Below are positions 5,072 through 24,042 of a stretch of 32,362 nucleotides of DNA, in pieces. Source of the stretch: a virus. The stretch covers positions 1 through 32,362 of IMG/VR virus record IMGVR_UViG_3300046010_005407. One strand, written 5' to 3'. The position numbers were made by a program, and so were the translations under genes. The notes beneath the pieces are model-generated. The model was not told where the DNA came from, made no database searches, and saw nothing but the letters and a program-made list of their open reading frames with translations. How positions within the stretch are numbered: the stretch's first letter is position 1; each line of letters starts with the position of its first letter.

Positions 5072-5146
5072 GCCCTTCACTTTGCCCCGCAAAGTAAACC
5101 TGGCAATTCCTTTGGATTTTTCTTCACTTTAGAGTTGCCGAACGCT

Positions 5147-5167
5147 GCAAAGGGTGTTCTCCTTTGC
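5147..5167. promoter_or_regulatory. Hairpin in divergent intergenic region
   Basis: Perfect 7-bp arms GCAAAGG and CCTTTGC enclose a 7-base loop between the divergent TerS gene and the plus-strand 35-residue gene. No T-run follows on either strand, so it is not a simple terminator. It lies in the leader of the plus-strand cluster and may be regulatory. Confidence 0.4.
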
Positions 5168-5199
5168 GTGCGCCCTCTGAATATGGGCATCCAAAACCA

Positions 5200-5307
5200 A
5201 TGAAACACCGCATCCCCCCAAAACTCCACGGGCCTTTATGCCTGCTTGGATTCCTTGCAATCATCGCAATCGTCGCCCTCATCGAATCGATCGGGGGTTC
5301 CCGATGA
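5200..5307 (+). CDS. Tiny membrane peptide (35 aa) leading the plus-strand cluster
   Basis: A 35-residue peptide, MKHRIPPKLHG followed by one hydrophobic stretch from about residue 12 to 28 (PLCLLGFLAIIAIVALI) and a short polar end. This looks like a single-pass inner-membrane peptide with a basic N-terminus. Its stop overlaps the ATG of the next gene (ATGA), so the two are probably translationally coupled. That overlap, and the matching sequence AAACCAATGAAA around this start and the start at 6075, support it as real. It could be an accessory membrane protein or simply a leader peptide. It does not resemble a holin in length, and no function can be assigned. Confidence 0.65.
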   Translation: MKHRIPPKLHGPLCLLGFLAIIAIVALIESIGGSR

Positions 5308-6008
5308 GCAACGGCTACGTCATTCACGAGGACACCCAGCGGGTTGTCATCGCAACGGGATTCTCAAAAGCTTCAGACAACCGGAAAACGGGCGACATGA
5401 TCCAAATTTGGATCCTTTGCAAAGCGGAGGACCCCGTTACCGCAATCCGAACCGGGCTTGATCGCATCATATGCGGCAATTGCCGCCACCGTGGACACGA
5501 GGTTGACGGAAAACACGGCGTTGAGCGAACCTGCTACGTCAACGAAGGGCAGGCTCCGCTTGGAATCTGGAAAGCTTGGAAAGCGGGACGATACCCTACC
5601 CTTCAATTCATGGACATTTTCTCGGGTCGCAAGGTTCGCTTCGGAGCCTACGGCGATCCCACCCACCTTCCTTTGAGCCTCGCCCTTGCAATTGCTGGTG
5701 TCGCTTCCGGTCACACCGGATACACCCACCAATGGCGCAAGCCTAGTCTCCAAGGGTGGAAAACCCTTTTGATGGCCAGCGTGGACACTACCGCCGAACT
5801 ACTCATCGCCCGTTCTATGGGGTGGAGTACCTTTCGCGTCACACCCGACCACGACCACCACGCATTCGAGACTCTCTGCGCTTCGGAGCGAAATGGAACC
5901 CCGTGTTCGATTTGCCTAGGTTGTCCCGGTTCACGCAACGGGCTCCAATCGGTATTTATCCCGGCCCACGGGAAGGGCAAGCGACACTTCATTGAAGCCC
6001 AAGCTTGA
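5304..6008 (+). CDS. Conserved phage protein with two cysteine clusters (234 aa)
   Basis: I recognise this as a family common in phages and mobile elements (a DUF7227-like group, named from memory) with no established function. Landmarks are SDNRKTGDMIQ near residues 24-34, ICGNC at 56-60 with Cys77 in CYVN, and EGQAPLGIWKAW. Further on are GRKVRFGAYGDPTHLP at 108-123, GHTGYTHQW at 136-144, LLMASVDT near 155, and a second cluster with Cys192 and CSICLGC at 201-207. The two cysteine groups suggest metal binding or a redox or cluster cofactor, which is inference. The start at the ATGA overlap is chosen over an in-frame ATG 66 bases upstream, because the upstream part lies inside the 35-residue gene. 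Confidence 0.85.
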   Translation: MSNGYVIHEDTQRVVIATGFSKASDNRKTGDMIQIWILCKAEDPVTAIRTGLDRIICGNCRHRGHEVDGKHGVERTCYVNEGQAPLGIWKAWKAGRYPTLQFMDIFSGRKVRFGAYGDPTHLPLSLALAIAGVASGHTGYTHQWRKPSLQGWKTLLMASVDTTAELLIARSMGWSTFRVTPDHDHHAFETLCASERNGTPCSICLGCPGSRNGLQSVFIPAHGKGKRHFIEAQA

Positions 6009-6022
6009 ATTCTCCGGAGAAT
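6009..6022. promoter_or_regulatory. Perfect 14-bp palindrome after the 234-aa gene
   Basis: ATTCTCCGGAGAAT begins directly after the stop codon and lies 53 bases before the next ATG. A second, weaker inverted repeat (GGGGC at 6028-6032 with GCCCC at 6061-6065) follows it in the same 66-base gap. A protein-binding site or an RNA leader fold are both possible; there is no U-tract typical of a terminator. Confidence 0.45.
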
Positions 6023-6074
6023 CCATGGGGGCGACTCCGTGGGTTCTGCGGGCAATTGATGCCCCTATAAACCA

Positions 6075-6392
6075 ATGAAAACCATAGTAACGCAATATTC
6101 CTTCATCGAATCCTTCCGCGCATACGGTCGGGAAAACCAGTTTTCTTACCCTGCCCTGTGCGCTCTCTTTGAATACCTTGAAAGGTTTGAAGAGGACACG
6201 GACACGGAGCTTGAATTGGACCCTATCGCCCTGTGCTGTGAATGGCAGGAATTTGACACCGCCCTGACAGCCGCGCAGGCCTTTGGTTACCGCGACGGTG
6301 TGGATTCAAAGGAAGAAACGCCTTTGGAATGGCTCCAGAACCGCACGCAGGCCATCGAATTCTCTTTCGGGGTGTTGGTGAACCAATTCTGA
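6075..6392 (+). CDS. Small acidic phage protein (105 aa)
   Basis: A 105-residue acidic protein. The segment YPALCALFEYLERFEEDTD followed by ELELDPIALCCEWQEF matches a pattern common in small phage and plasmid proteins: a helical stretch of YxALxALFxYLE, an acidic linker, then LD.IAL.CEW.E. These proteins are widespread in phage accessory regions and have no settled function. The C-terminus has TPLEWLQNRTQAIEF. The start ATGAAAACC is preceded by ATAAACCA, very like the leader of the 35-residue gene upstream. It sits third in the plus-strand cluster, three bases before the next gene. Confidence 0.8.
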   Translation: MKTIVTQYSFIESFRAYGRENQFSYPALCALFEYLERFEEDTDTELELDPIALCCEWQEFDTALTAAQAFGYRDGVDSKEETPLEWLQNRTQAIEFSFGVLVNQF

Positions 6393-6395
6393 GTT

Positions 6396-6653
6396 ATGAA
6401 AACCGCCTTTGAATCTGAGGTTGAGAAACAGAGCCTGTGCGCGACGGTCGGTCGGGTGATGTTCTGTCCACGGTGCGAAAACCTGATGGATTGGAAGTCC
6501 TCCGTGGAATTCACGGTGTGGGAAATTGAATCCGGAAAGTGCCTTACGGTGCGTGCGATCTGCGCTCCGTGCTGGGATAAGGTTCAATCCATGGTCACGA
6601 AGCCTAGCGTCAAATACCGTGTAGACACGATCGATGGAAGGAAACTCAAGTGA
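6396..6653 (+). CDS. Small putative zinc-ribbon protein (85 aa)
   Basis: An 85-residue protein with two CxxC pairs, CPRC at residues 24-27 and CAPC at about 56-59, about 28 residues apart. This spacing fits a zinc ribbon. Between them lies a beta-rich segment (SVEFTVWEIESGKCLTVRAI). It follows the acidic protein by three bases and its stop overlaps the GTG start of the next gene (GTGA). The function is not known; zinc ribbons in small phage proteins may bind nucleic acid or protein. Codon use and spacing agree with the rest of the cluster. Confidence 0.75.
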   Translation: MKTAFESEVEKQSLCATVGRVMFCPRCENLMDWKSSVEFTVWEIESGKCLTVRAICAPCWDKVQSMVTKPSVKYRVDTIDGRKLK

Positions 6654-6745
6654 AGCCATTACTTCGTGTTCTAGGGTATCTTGCCATGTGTTTGCTGTTT
6701 ACCCTATTGCTCATTCTCTCCGCCCTTGCGGGCAACGGTAGGTAA
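6650..6745 (+). CDS. Tiny membrane peptide (31 aa), end of cluster
   Basis: A 31-residue peptide with a GTG start at a GTGA overlap. It has a basic start (VKPLLR) and one hydrophobic segment, YLAMCLLFTLLLILSALAG, ending NGR. It would be a single-pass membrane peptide. It is the last gene before a strong terminator, so the first plus-strand cluster begins and ends with a tiny membrane peptide. The coupling overlap and the immediate terminator support it, but such a short frame remains uncertain. The function is unknown. Confidence 0.55.
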   Translation: MKPLLRVLGYLAMCLLFTLLLILSALAGNGR

Positions 6746-6762: not shown

Positions 6763-6797
6763 AGCCCCTTGGAAGCCCCAAGGGGCTCTTTTCTTTT
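6763..6797 (+). terminator. Rho-independent terminator, plus strand
   Basis: A perfect 10-bp stem (AGCCCCTTGG / CCAAGGGGCT) with loop AAGCC is followed by CTTTTCTTTT. It lies 18 bases after the last gene of the first plus-strand cluster and ends its transcript. Confidence 0.9.
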
Positions 6798-7013: not shown

Positions 7014-7175
7014 ATGGTGCGGTATTCCGGAACTCCCATACGCCATACGGAATTCGGAATTCGGGAATCGGGATTCCGGAACCGGGGTACAGGAAATCTT
7101 CATGGTGCGGTATTTTCCCTCTTGACGCTGATGGATATGGTGCGGTAGGTTGCGCCCATCGCCGCATGGTGCGGT
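7014..7175 (+). repeat. Four direct copies of ATGGTGCGGT upstream of the methyltransferase operon
   Basis: The decamer ATGGTGCGGT occurs at 7014-7023, 7102-7111, 7137-7146 and 7166-7175, all in the same orientation, in non-coding DNA just before the 66-residue gene and the methyltransferase. The first three copies continue with A. A TTGACG hexamer resembling a -35 box lies at 7122-7127 between copies 2 and 3. Between copies 1 and 2 are short repeats of GGAATTC and two copies of ATTCCGGAAC (7024 and 7073). Operator or iteron function is inferred from layout only. Confidence 0.6.
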
Positions 7176-7428: not shown

Positions 7429-8361
7429 ATGGATAGTACCCCCACAGTTACGCACCTTAGCCTCTGTACCGGATACGGGGGCATCGACCTTGGACTCGAT
7501 AGGGTTATCCGAGGCATGCGAACTCTTGCTTATGCGGAGATCGATGCGTTCGCGGTCGAGGTGTTACTTGCGCGAATGGAAGATGGGTCGCTTGATGCGG
7601 CTCCGATCTGGACTGATGTACGGGATTTCCCGTGGCATTTTCTTCACGGCAGCGTGGATATCCTCAGTGCGGGATATCCGTGCCAACCGTTCAGCCATGC
7701 CGGACTCCGCAAGGGGGACGATGACGAGCGGCATCTCTGGCCCCACATCAGGCGAGGGATTGAGTCAGTCCGACCTTCCGTTGTCCTTCTTGAGAACGTC
7801 GAGGGCCACATCTCGATGGGACTCCCCAGCGTCATCAGCGATCTGGAGGAGCTGGGTTACGAAGCAGCGTGGGGAATATTCAGCGCGGCTGAAGTTGGTG
7901 CGCCGCATCAGCGCAAGCGAGTCTTCATTGTTGCGACATCTCCCGACGCCCTGCGCGAACGAGGACAGTTTCCGATTGAATGGCTCAAGCCAGCAATCGA
8001 AGACGTTGGAGGCGATGGCACGGCGGGGAGAGCTGAGGACGGCGGCGACTGGGAATGCAAGCAATGTGGATCGCCTGTCTTTGGAGGGTGCGAATGCGAT
8101 CATGGTGAATCTCAATGTCACAACTGCCGCGAGTGGACATATCCATTCTACTATAGCGCAAGCGACGGATGCTCCTATTGTGGAACAAGCTGGCCAAAGT
8201 GGTGGGACACAACAAGCTGGCCCATTGAACCCGTCGTTCGTGGAAGCGATGATGGGACTACCAATCGGGTGGACCGACTGCGCCTCCTCGGCAACGGAGT
8301 CGTCCCCCAGACCGCCGCGCTCGCCTTCCGAACCCTGCTCCGAGAGGTGATCTCCAAGTAG
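7429..8361 (+). CDS. dcm: C5-cytosine DNA methyltransferase (phage orphan type)
   Basis: A 310-residue enzyme that would transfer a methyl group from S-adenosylmethionine to C5 of cytosine in a specific DNA site. Motif I is LSLCTGYGGIDLGL (residues 10-23). Motif IV is SAGYPCQPFSHAGLR with catalytic Cys85, motif VI is LENVEG (121-126), motif VIII is QRKRVFIVA (161-169), and motifs IX/X are RLLGNGVVPQTAALAF (285-300). The region between VIII and IX, where target recognition sits, is short and cysteine-rich: Cys210, 213, 221, 223, 230, 233, 248 and 251 could hold two zinc ions. No restriction endonuclease is adjacent, so self-protection or regulation is more likely than a restriction system. A long alternative frame in the same region lacks any motif. 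Confidence 0.93.
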   Translation: MDSTPTVTHLSLCTGYGGIDLGLDRVIRGMRTLAYAEIDAFAVEVLLARMEDGSLDAAPIWTDVRDFPWHFLHGSVDILSAGYPCQPFSHAGLRKGDDDERHLWPHIRRGIESVRPSVVLLENVEGHISMGLPSVISDLEELGYEAAWGIFSAAEVGAPHQRKRVFIVATSPDALRERGQFPIEWLKPAIEDVGGDGTAGRAEDGGDWECKQCGSPVFGGCECDHGESQCHNCREWTYPFYYSASDGCSYCGTSWPKWWDTTSWPIEPVVRGSDDGTTNRVDRLRLLGNGVVPQTAALAFRTLLREVISK

Positions 8362-18889: not shown

Positions 18890-18905
18890 AATTCTTGAAA
18901 GAATT
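18890..18905. other. Palindrome overlapping the giant gene's stop
   Basis: AATTCTT-GA-AAGAATT is a perfect 7-bp inverted repeat overlapping the stop codon of the 1712-residue gene. It is A/T-rich and not followed by a U-tract. It may be part of the control region of the downstream operon rather than a terminator. Confidence 0.4.
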
Positions 18906-21900
18906 ATTCGGACGGCTGCTGGAAGCCCCGGCGAGCGGCGAGCGGAGTGAGTGTTTGGCCCGACTGGATCAGCTCCCGAACAAACTGCTTCTTGGCGATG
19001 AGTAGGCCATCGTCATAGGCGCGTTGGAGGAGCTTGAGCTTTCGCTCGTCACCGCCCTGCTGGAAACGGGGTTTCATAAACTCCTGTTCCGCCCGTAATC
19101 TGCGGTAATTTCCCACGAGTTGGGTGTATCGATCGTACTGCTCAGGCGACATCCGATCGTAGGTCTTCTGCTTCCAAGTCAGACTGGGGCTTGGTACCGA
19201 TGGGATCGCGCTGTTGTCAGCGGTCCTGCGCCAGATCGTGTAGATCGAGGTGTTGAGCGGATCGGCATCGATGTCACGCGCTTTCCAAGCGTTGAAGAAC
19301 TGGTACACCCACGGATTGCTTCCCTTCGGGGTCTGTTCCACGGCTTCACCCCAGAGGTCACGGCGCACCGGCATGGCATTGGGATCCTTCGCACCAGGGA
19401 TGGCCAACCCAAGGGCGGCGTATCGCTGATTGAGTTCATCGACCGTATCCTTGATGAAGCTCTGGCCACCGATTGCAGGGAGCTTGTCTCGTTCAGCGCG
19501 GCGCACGGCACCGAGGATGGCTGGAGCCACAGGAGACGCCGCAGTGACCGCCATACTCTTGAGCCAGCGATCCATCGAGTTGGTGGATTCCTGCGACAGG
19601 AGCTTGATGAAATCGCTGGTTCCCTTGAGGAACTGCTGCTCCATCACGAAGTTAAGGCCAGAGGTTGGTACTGCCTTAAACAGCGAGGTTGCGATCTCTT
19701 CGTTGCTGCGGCCCCGCTCCAATTGGCGCAGAGAAGTGCCGGCCATGATCCCCAATGCGCCGGCAGTGCCGAGGGATGAGAGATCGACCACGGTATCTCC
19801 CCCTTGGAATTTCGGATCCTTGCCGTTTACCAGTCGAGTTAGAGCCGAAAGATTGATCGTACCCGGAGGCATGACACCACCAGCCTTGGCCAACTCACGA
19901 GCCTTGTTGGTCTCGCCAGCGGTATCAAGGTTTGGGGTGATGATTCCCTTGCTGTAGAGATAACCGAACGCCGTAGTGACCATCGCTCCTACCGCAATTC
20001 GAGAAGCAGCTATGTTGCGTTCACGAGCGGTCATCTTTCCCCAATCGTTTATCAGCGCACCAGCAGGCGTGAACTGAAGAGCTTCTGCGGCTACGTTGAT
20101 CGGGGTTTTCTGGAACAGCGAGATCAGTCGGTACGGGACGTAAAAGGTAGACCCAAGTTCATTCTTTATGAACCGATTGATTCCGGCCACAGCCTTGGTG
20201 GCTTTGTTATCCTGCTGGAAGATGGCCTTCAGAGACTCGGTCTCGATCGTCGCAAGATCATCTTCGGTGAATCCGCGGCGACCACGTTGAGCCTCTGCAT
20301 CGGTTACGAACGCGAGCTTGGGATCGCGCACGGCGATCTGAATCTGACCTTCTGAGAGTCCCTTCGCTCGACCGATTTCACTGATGATGCGAGCGCGTTC
20401 AGCCTGCCGGAATGGAATATCAGTGGCCTGAGTTAGGCGCAGCATGATGTCGGGCAGGATGCCTATGGTCGCCTCAGTTAGGTTCCGGGGAGACAACGCG
20501 GATCCGATTCTACCAGCAGCCATGTCTTCGGCGATCCGCCGCCATGCTCGCTGAAAGTTGAGCGGATTACCGATGTCGGTTCCAGGTTCATACGGCATCG
20601 CATTGGAACCCTTGAGGACAGTTTTCATCGCAACTGGCAGCGACTTGTAGATCGCATTGATCCGATCAATGGTTCGAGCGCGGATGTTGAACGAGTTGTT
20701 CTTGTCCTTTGAGAACGTCGCGTCGATGGCTGCGGCACCAACATCACCAAGTTCGCGCAGTGGGTAGTTAATCGCATTACCCACCACGTTGCGAATGATT
20801 GAGATCGGACCCATCACCGATCCTTGAACCATCGAGATAAACAGATCCGCGGCGTCGGCTGGATTGATCTTCGCAAGCTGCTCGTTGAGGATGGCATCGA
20901 CCTCGGATCGTTTTGCGTCGGCCAAGTCCAACTGCTTCAGGCTCTTGTTGATCGTATTGAGATCGTTGGAAGCGAACGCATCACGAGCAACACGACCTGC
21001 GGCGATGACTTCATCGTTGGCAAGTTTGAGCTTGCTGCCGGCGTCCAGAAGGATCTGGGACTGCTCGGCTGTCATCGGCTTACGTTTTCTGTTGGCCAAC
21101 GAATTCTGAACCAGCAGGACCAATCCCTCCGGGGTAGAGGAGTTGAGGAGCTTGAACTGGTTGATGAGCTGACCCCAACTGGTTCCGCTTTTCGCAAGTG
21201 CCAGTGCGGTGCTGCTTGCGCCAGCCACATCTCCAGAACGGATCTGGCGTCCAAAGATCTCCATGCCAGAAACAACCCTGGTGTTGGATGAGGTATCAGC
21301 CAGATCAGCATTGAGCTGAGAGAGCGACATGGACGATGCGCGATCAACCACCTCGCCCATATTCTGCTGAGCGTACTGAGCTTCAGGAGACTGGCCTACC
21401 GTCTCGCGGACCTCGGTGGGAAGCTGTTCAGCGGCAGCAACGCGACCTGCAAAAGCTCGGGTCTTCTGTTCTTCAGGACGTTGGAAGCGGAAACTGGTTG
21501 GATCTCCTGTTTGTGCGTTTTTGACGAAAACTGTATTTCCAATTTGAACAGCTTCATCACCCCCTACAACAGGAGTCACTCCATCGGCTCGATCATAAAA
21601 ATAAGAGTGCCTGTCAGGATTAAACCCAACTTGAGTCCAAGTGTTTATGTCGCTTGGAATTGTTTGCGATTCGTGCTTTGTCCCCTTTGCGACAATGGTC
21701 GGTGTCTTTGCGGCACCAGCTCCTATCTTAAGTGACTGAGTTTCCATTCCTTTTGTGGGAACCATTTTGATGTTCCTAACACGAATGAACGGCTCGTATG
21801 TGGTTTTGTCTCCGCTGGTTCCAGTTACAACACCAACACCAAAATCAGTCATAGCAGGAACGTCCTGCCTGAGTGTCATCTCAGATCCAGCGGGTATTTC

Positions 21901-24042
21901 ACTCAGCTTTCCAACATTAGCTTTCTTCCTTGGATCACTGAGCGAGTCTCGAATTGTCTGTAAGTTTGGAAGTGCTTGCGATGAAAACTCGGGAACTTCC
22001 CTGACCGGGATATCGCGGTTGATTGCAGCCTGCAACGCTTCCCTGTCGAGTGTTCCACCAGCTTGAAGAGCTTCAAGTTGCGCCCTGACATCTGGAGAAA
22101 AGATTCGCCCACTCTCCATCATCTCCGCCTGAGACCCTGGGACTGACTCCTTGAACCTTTCAAATGCAGCAGCTCTACGCTCTGAAATGGTTTGAGGTTC
22201 CTCACCCCTCTGTGTCCTCTGCTCCGTCGCCTTCGGTGCAGTCACTCCCTTCCAAGGAACAGACTCGGTGGTCGCGTAGTGCATCCACGCGATGGCATCC
22301 TCGGGCGACACTTTCCCAGTGAGCAACTGCTTGGTAGAAGCCTTGAAGGCGTAGAACCAAGACCGGATATCGCTGCGCTTGATGTTCGGAATCTGCTCGC
22401 CAAACGCCTGAATGAGACCTTCTTCGAGAGCAATCTCTTGGGCCTGCTTTGGGGTCAGTTTTCCTTGCTCAACCTCTGGAGCGCGGGCCAACAGCTCGCT
22501 CTTGTAAGCGGGGGTATCTTGAGCGGATTCTAACAGAGACTTCCGCATCGACGGGTTGGTCACACCGCGGAACACATCGTGACCGATTTCATGGATAGCC
22601 GTGTCCGCTGTAGCCATGAGCGGGTTGACGCGGACGATACGGTTGCCGGTCTTTGGATCGGGAATGTAAATCCCTCGAATCTCAGTAGATCCAGCAAACG
22701 GACGATCCAGTTCGATGGTCAGACCTCGACGAGCAGCAATCTTTGCGGCTGCATCTACGTCGGCTTGGGTAATTTTTGCCGCTTCGCCTTGGCGTTGGAG
22801 ACGACTGTAGAGATTATCGTAGATTTCTTGGGCCGTTTTTACAGCGGATTTTTCAGTTCTAAACTGACTCTCAGTAATAGTTTGGACCTGTTTTTCTTGT
22901 GCTTTTCGTGACCGCTCTTCGGACATGATTGCGCGTTTAGCAGCTTGCTGCTGCTGAACTACTTGTTCGTATGAATCCTCAAGTCCTTCTTGATACTGCC
23001 TTGAGATAAACTCAGGAAGTGTGGTTGGGTCTTTGATGACGCGAACAACATCGGGATCGTTGGCCAACTGCTGTATCCGCTCCTTCGGAATACGAACCTT
23101 GACGCTATTTGCAGCTTCCTTGATGAGCGTTTCAGTCGGCTCAGTCTGAGACTTCCACCAGTTCTCGTACTGCTTGGCAATTTTATCTGCGTTGATCGGA
23201 CGATTTTCTTCGACTACTCGTTCTGGAGCTGGAGGTTGCTCACTAAGAGCGCGAAACCTTTCAGCCTCGACATCCATCTCGGCGACAGTCTTTTCAACTT
23301 CAGCTTTTTCTCGTTCAGCGCGGACTCTAGCCTCTTCAAAATCCAGCTTTTGAACCGGACCTTCTTGCGGCCCCTCGGCCATACCGAGCTTACGTCCCAA
23401 TCGAGTGGGGCGATTGAAAAGCGTACCGAGCGCGATGTCTGCTGCGAGTTGGCCACCAGAGAACTCTCCGCCCTGCGTAACCTCAGCGATCTGCTGACCG
23501 GTGGATTGAGCGACGTTCGCCGCCACATTCATGGCAGGATCAATGAATGCAGGCTTGGTGATCGCTTCGCGGAGCGTGGTCTGCCGAACAAGTGGCCTAC
23601 CAAGCTCGCTGAGGCCCTTGAGAGAAGGGCGAGCGGTCAGAGCGGTCGGAGCAAAGCCACCAATATACGAAGCGACAGGCTGCTCTTCCTGAGCCTGAGA
23701 CAGCTTCTGGAGCGTCTCAGGCGAGTATTTCTCAAGCAGTGCTTCCTGACCTTTGCTGGCAGCGTAAGCAGCCGCAGCACCGGCAGTTAACGCGCCTAGT
23801 CCACCACCTACAAGCATTCCAATAGGACCAAACGGTGCGCCAAGTAATGCTCCACCCTCGCTGCCAGCCATCGCGGCAGGTATTGCAGCCAGAGAGGGAA
23901 CTGCGCTGGCCGCGGCTGAGCGCAAACCAGCTTCAGTCTTACCCATAATTGGGTTCTCAAAGACATTCCCTTCCGCATCTACGTCATAGACCTCCGGATC
24001 GAGTTTGTTTTCGATCAACCAATCACGCTGGGTCTTTGTCAT
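18904..24042 (-). CDS. Giant multidomain virion-type protein with HEIGH metallopeptidase motif (1712 aa)
   Basis: A 1712-residue protein, the largest in the window, last of the structural block. Residues 42-98 are Ala/Gly-rich and hydrophobic (GPIGMLVGGGLGALTAG). A charged coiled region follows at about 225-400. At 484-488 lies HEIGH within DTAIHEIGHDVFRG, a zincin-type metalloprotease site. Around 810-835 is RHSYFYDRADG with DEAVQIGNTVFVKNA, a domain I associate with large polyvalent phage proteins. The last third is helical, with a hydrophobic stretch (AVGAMVTTAFGYLYSKG, about 1350-1370) and FRQAERARIISEIG, as in C-terminal domains of injected phage proteins. It is probably an internal virion protein delivered with the DNA that may process host or phage proteins. 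A third zinc ligand was not assigned. Confidence 0.8.
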   Translation of the reverse strand: MTKTQRDWLIENKLDPEVYDVDAEGNVFENPIMGKTEAGLRSAAASAVPSLAAIPAAMAGSEGGALLGAPFGPIGMLVGGGLGALTAGAAAAYAASKGQEALLEKYSPETLQKLSQAQEEQPVASYIGGFAPTALTARPSLKGLSELGRPLVRQTTLREAITKPAFIDPAMNVAANVAQSTGQQIAEVTQGGEFSGGQLAADIALGTLFNRPTRLGRKLGMAEGPQEGPVQKLDFEEARVRAEREKAEVEKTVAEMDVEAERFRALSEQPPAPERVVEENRPINADKIAKQYENWWKSQTEPTETLIKEAANSVKVRIPKERIQQLANDPDVVRVIKDPTTLPEFISRQYQEGLEDSYEQVVQQQQAAKRAIMSEERSRKAQEKQVQTITESQFRTEKSAVKTAQEIYDNLYSRLQRQGEAAKITQADVDAAAKIAARRGLTIELDRPFAGSTEIRGIYIPDPKTGNRIVRVNPLMATADTAIHEIGHDVFRGVTNPSMRKSLLESAQDTPAYKSELLARAPEVEQGKLTPKQAQEIALEEGLIQAFGEQIPNIKRSDIRSWFYAFKASTKQLLTGKVSPEDAIAWMHYATTESVPWKGVTAPKATEQRTQRGEEPQTISERRAAAFERFKESVPGSQAEMMESGRIFSPDVRAQLEALQAGGTLDREALQAAINRDIPVREVPEFSSQALPNLQTIRDSLSDPRKKANVGKLSEIPAGSEMTLRQDVPAMTDFGVGVVTGTSGDKTTYEPFIRVRNIKMVPTKGMETQSLKIGAGAAKTPTIVAKGTKHESQTIPSDINTWTQVGFNPDRHSYFYDRADGVTPVVGGDEAVQIGNTVFVKNAQTGDPTSFRFQRPEEQKTRAFAGRVAAAEQLPTEVRETVGQSPEAQYAQQNMGEVVDRASSMSLSQLNADLADTSSNTRVVSGMEIFGRQIRSGDVAGASSTALALAKSGTSWGQLINQFKLLNSSTPEGLVLLVQNSLANRKRKPMTAEQSQILLDAGSKLKLANDEVIAAGRVARDAFASNDLNTINKSLKQLDLADAKRSEVDAILNEQLAKINPADAADLFISMVQGSVMGPISIIRNVVGNAINYPLRELGDVGAAAIDATFSKDKNNSFNIRARTIDRINAIYKSLPVAMKTVLKGSNAMPYEPGTDIGNPLNFQRAWRRIAEDMAAGRIGSALSPRNLTEATIGILPDIMLRLTQATDIPFRQAERARIISEIGRAKGLSEGQIQIAVRDPKLAFVTDAEAQRGRRGFTEDDLATIETESLKAIFQQDNKATKAVAGINRFIKNELGSTFYVPYRLISLFQKTPINVAAEALQFTPAGALINDWGKMTARERNIAASRIAVGAMVTTAFGYLYSKGIITPNLDTAGETNKARELAKAGGVMPPGTINLSALTRLVNGKDPKFQGGDTVVDLSSLGTAGALGIMAGTSLRQLERGRSNEEIATSLFKAVPTSGLNFVMEQQFLKGTSDFIKLLSQESTNSMDRWLKSMAVTAASPVAPAILGAVRRAERDKLPAIGGQSFIKDTVDELNQRYAALGLAIPGAKDPNAMPVRRDLWGEAVEQTPKGSNPWVYQFFNAWKARDIDADPLNTSIYTIWRRTADNSAIPSVPSPSLTWKQKTYDRMSPEQYDRYTQLVGNYRRLRAEQEFMKPRFQQGGDERKLKLLQRAYDDGLLIAKKQFVRELIQSGQTLTPLAARRGFQQPSE

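Follow-up and report, generated by a model that had tools for sequence, protein, structure and literature searches.

Gene layout of the locus

The window analyzed here is a virus record of 32,362 bases (IMGVR_UViG_3300046010_005407). Terminase and portal genes fill roughly the first 5.1 kb on the minus strand, and a plus-strand cluster begins at position 5200, divergent from terS. The initial annotation described two single-span peptides of 35 and 31 aa that open and close this cluster, and all of the open reading frames (ORFs) lie where it placed them. The features of the locus are as follows.

5135–5163, plus strand: candidate promoter TTGCCG-N17-TCTCCT, read by eye and weak in the window
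5172–5188, plus strand: stem-loop GCCC/GGGC ending 11 nt 5' of the leader ATG, based on pairing across the lineage, with only 4 pairs in the window
5200–5307, plus strand: leader (opening) micropeptide, 35 aa, one membrane span, based on conservation and dN/dS
5293–5297, plus strand: embedded Shine-Dalgarno sequence GGGGG in the Gly-Gly codons of the leader; GG[AG]GG in all distinct leaders
5304–6008, plus strand: DUF7227/phrog_2554 protein, 234 aa, with Cys57, 60 and 77 and Cys192, 201, 204 and 207, based on a profile match and a predicted partial beta/alpha barrel
6050–6064, plus strand: possible further stem-loop GGGC/GCCC ending 10 nt 5' of the 105-aa gene, by eye and tentative
6075–6392, plus strand: cargo gene, 105 aa, phrog_9974 (unknown function), E 3.7e-9
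6396–6653, plus strand: cargo gene, 85 aa, CxxC...CxxC, possibly zinc-ribbon-like, from weak Pfam zinc-ribbon matches, all below cut-off
6650–6745, plus strand: closing micropeptide (pep31), 31 aa, one membrane span, GTG start, based on dN/dS and conservation
6763–6787, plus strand: intrinsic terminator-like structure, a 10-pair stem followed by CTTTTCTTTT, at a conserved position

The leader and the 234-aa ORF share an ATGA overlap, and the 85-aa ORF and pep31 share a GTGA overlap. All junctions had been called tight or overlapping, which is not fully accurate, since 66 nt separate the DUF7227 gene from the 105-aa gene. An alternative stem outscores the GGGC/GCCC stem near 6050–6064. No tRNA was found, and an Rfam search returned no family at gathering scores.

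Akkermansia phages are the best-ranked isolated relatives by TerL (31–36% identity), and a 5,073-base contig carrying an 89% identical DUF7227 gene was binned in a Verrucomicrobiota MAG. Given these two relationships, the host of the lineage is probably a verrucomicrobium. By a loose test, Shine-Dalgarno sequences precede only 7 of 38 gene starts in the window, as in hosts with non-canonical initiation (GGGGG did not count as a site, and the terS entry was misplaced relative to its start codon). Elsewhere in the window there is a C5 DNA methylase (7429–8361) with a Cys-rich stretch, noted by eye, after its N-terminal Pfam match (residues 9–174). A 1712-aa protein (18904–24042) has no PHROG match at E 0.01, nor do its neighbors of 464, 350, and 392 aa.

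The DUF7227 family

The 234-aa protein is a full-length homologue of phrog_2554 (E 1.7e-59, residues 10–231). The window protein matches no Pfam family at E up to 1, DUF7227 (PF23872) included; it is assigned to DUF7227 because its relatives match PF23872 (best E 5.5e-8; 102 of the 136 homologues in the alignment reach E up to 1). The initial annotation considered this product conserved and described two cysteine groups (Cys57, 60, and 77; Cys201, 204, and 207). We confirm both points and add a seventh cysteine, Cys192. All seven are invariant in 141 of 141 sequences, the window protein included. This set was drawn from 284 of 321 profile-hit loci and kept at <75% identity; the loci dropped had no usable start or a length outside 190–330. 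Also invariant are Asn26, Lys28, Thr29, Pro44, Tyr78, Arg112, Asp118, Tyr140, Ser159, and His222, in the 136 sequences of an alignment (A5) that excludes loci from annotated records. Starts were set by hand for two loci (L045 and L052), and one copy with an internal stop (L065) was excluded from protein alignments.

Family matches were identified in 147 of 50,697 phage records and 6 of 72,556 plasmids, and in 593 of 598 pattern-matching viral-contig stretches, of which 80 were kept. Carriers include mycobacterial, Klebsiella, roseobacter, and cyanobacterial phages and a few plasmids. Among the longest upstream neighbors at 129 diverse loci (L083–L327), the eight most-matched PHROGs are all terminase families, with 13 members at most for one family and the phages unrelated. 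No conserved neighbor at these 129 loci gives DUF7227 a pathway. The gene is near the genome end in several isolates (44.8 of 46.7 kb, 43.8 of 45.7 kb, and 40.2 of 41.1 kb) and away from it in Microcystis phage LMM01 and Klebsiella phage KNP2; its position fits with expression early in infection. Two candidate roles were rejected. A known defense protein is not indicated (none of 9 proteins matched a PADLOC model at E up to 0.01), and long stop-to-stop readings that could have pointed to a fusion module look like non-coding read-through. Our literature search found DUF7227, PF23872, and phrog_2554 in no paper.

Predicted fold of DUF7227

AlphaFold (AF2) models have pLDDT 96.6 for the window protein and 93.8 for a member of another clade, and DUF7227 is confidently predicted to be a partial (beta/alpha) barrel. 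The predicted core has six strands (33–39, 110–116, 136–141, 157–160, 176–180, and 216–220) alternating with helices, after two N-terminal strands. In the model, the first three cysteines lie between core strands one and two and the other four between strands five and six.

Using VIA-align with model 1, ranks 1 to 6 are all radical-SAM enzymes (Z 3.8–4.4). The best are QueE (Z 4.4, rmsd 5.2, 150 aligned) and a viperin-like protein (4.1, 4.5, 140), with further matches to QueE (4.1, 4.5, 132) and TYW1 (4.0, 6.2, 143); rank 7 is an unrelated TIM barrel at Z 3.3. With model 2, radical-SAM enzymes hold ranks 1, 2, 5, and 6 (Z 2.8–3.1), led by RlmN (3.1, 5.1, 143) and SkfB (3.1, 5.4, 147), and two hydrolases at ranks 3 and 4 (Z 2.9) are tied with them. 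All of these Z-scores are below 5 and may reflect the common barrel. Foldseek against the PDB gave no significant match (best E 0.27, limited to the folds present there), and a sequence search of solved structures gave none for DUF7227.

Sequence profiles were also compared. The radical-SAM motif CX3CX2C is absent, and DUF7227 has Cys57-x2-Cys60...Cys77 instead. PF04055 gave no match in the window protein at E up to 1 and is not among the 25 of 48 families listed for 136 homologues. Alignment of the DUF7227 profile with radical-SAM by hhalign was not significant, and a comparison with DUF5131, made with the wrong DUF5131 frame, gave no support. Against GP88 (PF17338), hhalign returned P 0.015 and 0.033 (prob 3.0 and 1.5%) over non-corresponding segments, the first GP88 profile being narrow; the best alignment scores 21.2 vs a maximum of 19.3 in 30 column-shuffled controls. 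By fold, GP88 was matched at E 7.5e-3 (prob 0.96) with model 2 and at E 0.37 with model 1. Because sequence profiles give no support and fold Z-scores are low, DUF7227 is not classed here as a radical-SAM enzyme. That it nonetheless works like one is tentative, at somewhat less than even odds on the predicted structures.

The cysteines could have another role. C-x2-C...C, CxxCxxC, and the invariant His222 could all bind Zn, and DUF7227 would then be a Zn protein with two structural sites rather than any Fe-S or radical-type enzyme, as the missing radical-SAM sequence match might suggest. We give this reading a substantial minority chance. Weighing against it, a CxxCxxC motif paired with a distant Cys is the more typical arrangement for a [4Fe-4S] cluster, and the predicted model places the invariant Gly117-Asp118, Tyr140, Ser159, and His222 at or just past the strand ends of the beta/alpha core. 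The likeliest reading of the protein is that of an Fe-S (or other metal) enzyme built on a partial radical-SAM-like barrel, perhaps acting early in infection.

The leader peptide and its embedded Shine-Dalgarno sequence

The leader was identified in 144 of 145 testable loci by a search that required a Gly-Gly ending, one span, and 30–40 aa, with a distance limit of 800 nt. An earlier search with a short distance limit recovered 107 of 149. All 144 leaders join the following gene by NTGA. In each of 87 distinct leaders the Gly-Gly codons read GG[AG]GG (65 GGAGG and 22 GGGGG), and for background, GGA and GGG together make up 37% of the Gly codons in DUF7227 genes of the lineage. Given the overlapping start, GG[AG]GG is taken as a putative Shine-Dalgarno sequence for the next gene. 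The leader is itself without a Shine-Dalgarno sequence in 55 of 69 contexts.

We applied identical criteria inside and outside the lineage (30–40 aa, ATG, one span, ≤450 nt upstream, NTGA end, and Gly-Gly near the end). A leader precedes DUF7227 in 75 of 75 testable lineage loci vs 0 of 132 outside. Among the latter, a 30–40-aa membrane ORF lies within 450 nt upstream in 6 of 132 (opposite strand, 1); four of these six end in NTGA and none additionally in Gly-Gly. Under looser limits (25–60 aa, any start), the outside counts are 17 of 132 upstream vs 14 on the opposite strand, and 35 of 100 downstream vs 38. A first outside test (upstream 3 of 100, control strand 0; downstream 24 of 100, control 5) was unfair because it demanded a Shine-Dalgarno sequence, which lineage leaders mostly lack. 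At two outside loci (L232 and L305), a 32–35-aa membrane ORF without the Gly-Gly ending stops at the DUF7227 start; these are possibly independent cases.

If the leader ORF were a mere ribosome-delivery device with a functionless product, a constant embedded Shine-Dalgarno sequence and stop/start overlap in a sequence that varies by type would be expected, and both are found. Two observations argue that the product also matters: dN/dS is 0.27–0.39 within four leader types (by simple pairwise counts without a tree), and a membrane span is present in all 83 distinct leader proteins, although the span was itself a search criterion. We consider delivery without a functional product unlikely, though it has an appreciable chance.

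A fixed slot with exchangeable cargo

Two sets of loci were surveyed. The first comprises 81 loci (80 viral-contig loci found via DUF7227 and one MAG locus) and is biased because it was fetched through DUF7227. The second comprises 80 loci fetched by TerL alone, free of selection on DUF7227. The joint set of 161 loci includes some contigs twice, so counts were redone on the 80 TerL loci alone.

In the TerL set, DUF7227, which is the most frequent cargo, is present in 41 of 54 loci with at least 2500 nt beyond TerL. The leader is present in 68 of 69 testable loci (53 distinct leaders), and the stop codon of each of the 68 overlaps the start codon of an ORF 60 or more codons long. The closing peptide is present in 33 of 35 testable loci with DUF7227 and 11 of 11 without it (44 of 46 overall). 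By tblastn, the 105-aa gene of the window was matched in 13 of the 81 loci of the first set and the 85-aa gene in 31. Overall, the 77 distinct islands of both sets, as automatically picked ORFs, have 31 gene orders and 27 cargo families, 10 of which are single ORFs.

We inspected ten loci that lack DUF7227. At the same place in each there is a 36–37-aa membrane peptide, and it overlaps the start of a different gene; several cargo types are represented. Three of the ten (L356, L363, and L388) encode a protein of 352 aa and, after it, one of about 296 aa. In the domain scan, which covered L356 (4183–6164), the 352-aa protein matches Amidoligase_2 (PF12224, E 9.9e-9) and the ~296-aa protein falls just under the cut-off for a class-II glutamine amidotransferase model (E 5.6e-5). 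At another locus (L065, 5998–6177), the DUF7227 copy has an in-frame stop right after CGNC, and the leader and closing peptide are retained.

The initial annotation had expected the peptides to co-occur with the 234-aa protein in other phages. We rejected a partnership of this kind: both peptides persist in the 11 testable lineage loci without DUF7227, and no such opener precedes any of the 132 DUF7227 genes outside the lineage. The initial annotation also saw a self-contained accessory unit inserted against the packaging genes. The comparisons support a self-contained unit, with its hairpin, leader, cargo, closing peptide, and terminator, that diverges from terS. "Inserted" does not apply, as the frame is resident in the lineage and only the cargo changes. 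From these comparisons of loci, the peptides mark the two ends of a slot that is fixed within one phage lineage and whose cargo is exchangeable. The anatomy of the unit, its conservation, the exchange of cargo, and selection on both peptides can be read directly from the sequences.

Upstream hairpin and candidate promoter

At least five of six stem pairs form in 58 of 86 distinct upstream regions, vs a mean of 13.15 and a maximum of 19 in shuffles. Across 24 distinct hairpins, every one of the six positions shows three or more pair types, so the sequence changes while the pairing is kept. The 3' edge of the best stem lies 10–12 nt before the leader ATG in 69 of 86 regions. A covarying hairpin thus precedes the opener.

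Evidence for a promoter comes from the lineage. A promoter scan of the window found none at 5135–5163. Among the 86 distinct upstream regions, a sigma-70-like signal (at least 9 of 12 matches, 16–18 nt spacing) occurs in 20 (5% in shuffles), and TTGAC, TTGCA, or TTGCC occurs at -80 to -45 in 55, vs 13.8 when shuffled.

The closing peptide and terminator-like structure

Of 83 loci that extend 3300 nt or more past the leader, 76 matched a regular expression for pep31. Counted pairwise in the same simple, tree-free way, the dN/dS of pep31 is 0.06 in one type (50 distinct) and 0.09 in another (24 distinct), and 0.15 when the two are taken together. Shifting the frame in the first type gave control values of 1.23 and 12.96. 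Both micropeptides are under purifying selection by these counts. The initial annotation would have been refuted by tiny frames that lack conservation and ribosome footprints; both frames proved to be conserved. A Shine-Dalgarno sequence is missing in 17 of 58 closer contexts. The NTGA at the closer is forced by the regular expression (the second-residue codon nearly always starts with A), so support there comes from the upstream ORF, which has at least 40 codons in 114 of 126 cases.

A terminator-like structure follows pep31 in 66 of 79 distinct downstream regions vs 1 of 79 when shuffled, in agreement with the terminator that had been noted after the cluster. The terminator scan of the window overall found no more sites than its shuffles, and the 10-pair stem at 6763–6787 is backed by its conserved position. 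At 7014–7175, between this structure and the next gene, there are four exact plus-strand copies of ATGGTGCGGT. Allowing one mismatch, the window has 8 matches vs 1.81 expected. In all 45 TerL-set loci tested, 1–4 copies of ATGG[TA]GCGGT lie within 700 nt of the closing peptide. These repeats are a possible operator or origin.

Small single-span peptides in a phage raise the question of lysis. The two micropeptides could act in lysis or membrane stress, like holins or type I toxins, with the genes between them incidental; each is a short single-span peptide, pep31 shows strong conservation, and a PHROGs scan of 16 window proteins (part of the genes of the window) named no holin. However, the peptides frame cargo that changes and are divergent from the packaging genes, and the leader sequence is highly variable and has a ribosome site for the following gene built into it. 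We regard a lysis role as improbable. An ordinary phage operon with chance short ORFs, which the frequency of NTGA overlaps and the variable gene content might suggest, is very improbable, as it is contradicted by selection on both frames (frame-specific for pep31) and by their constancy across exchanged cargo.

A proposed expression socket

We propose, with a probability of roughly 0.7, that the unit, which diverges from the terminase genes, serves as a resident socket from which exchangeable accessory genes are expressed by natural bicistronic coupling. A single transcript would start near the conserved 5' stem-loop. Ribosomes would initiate on the leader, mostly without a Shine-Dalgarno sequence of its own, and produce a membrane peptide of 33–38 aa. 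Translation of the leader would terminate at a TGA that overlaps the next start, just past the Shine-Dalgarno sequence formed by the Gly-Gly codons. This combination of overlap and embedded Shine-Dalgarno sequence would let ribosomes re-initiate on whichever gene occupies the slot. The last cargo gene would be joined similarly to the second membrane micropeptide, and the terminator would end the unit. Recombination would swap the cargo while both ends stay. We infer three points: translation of the cargo is truly coupled to that of the leader, the hairpin works at the mRNA level, and the two peptides have their function in the membrane.

A further-reaching version of the socket is speculative, and we consider it rather improbable. 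Specifically, the membrane leader would both supply ribosomes to acquired genes and bring their translation to the membrane, and the closer would complete a membrane-bound unit. DUF7227 would be the first recognized member of a new and very widespread family of radical-SAM-like phage metalloenzymes used at the start of infection.

Immediate expression of a newly arrived gene is rarely visible, and here a candidate device for it is readable from sequence. The slot also offers a way to list accessory genes, namely whatever sits between the two peptides.

Comparison with known systems

The best structural neighbors of DUF7227 are the radical-SAM enzymes QueE, viperin, TYW1, and RlmN, all at Z <5. 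By eye, it shares with the radical-SAM layout three cysteines that follow core strand one and a conserved Gly-Asp loop that follows core strand two. It differs from these enzymes in lacking both their cysteine motif and a sequence match. GP88 comes next among named viral families in fold similarity, and its motif order is similar by eye, but its profile comparison with DUF7227 is not significant.

Phages often swap accessory genes at fixed places, and in this respect the slot resembles other variable accessory loci, with a fixed place and changing cargo. It is unlike them in that a micropeptide forms each edge and is linked to the cargo through a stop/start overlap. A limited literature search, covering small membrane proteins and coupling in variable regions of phages as well as bicistronic leaders, found no such slot.

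The closest parallels are bicistronic designs (BCD) and short-ORF coupling. Each junction alone is ordinary, because NTGA is given in a review as the commonest spacing in prokaryotes (PMC12548453). The same review describes ribosome-delivering short ORFs as proposed in nature and used in biotechnology, and names mycobacterial MIRUs as a possible natural case of such coupling (PMC12548453). Engineered designs are described with a second Shine-Dalgarno sequence inside a first cistron of <20 aa (PMC5995908). As these sources present such systems, the phage unit shares with them a short first cistron, an internal Shine-Dalgarno sequence for the downstream gene, a stop near or overlapping the next start, and varied second genes (PMC5995908, PMC12548453). 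Features of a bicistronic leader found here are the embedded Shine-Dalgarno sequence (87 of 87), the stop/start overlap (144 of 144), and unrelated downstream genes. Unlike the engineered designs as described there, the phage unit is natural and its coupling is one that we infer; its leader is longer (33–38 aa), hydrophobic, and under selection, and a second micropeptide stands at the far end.
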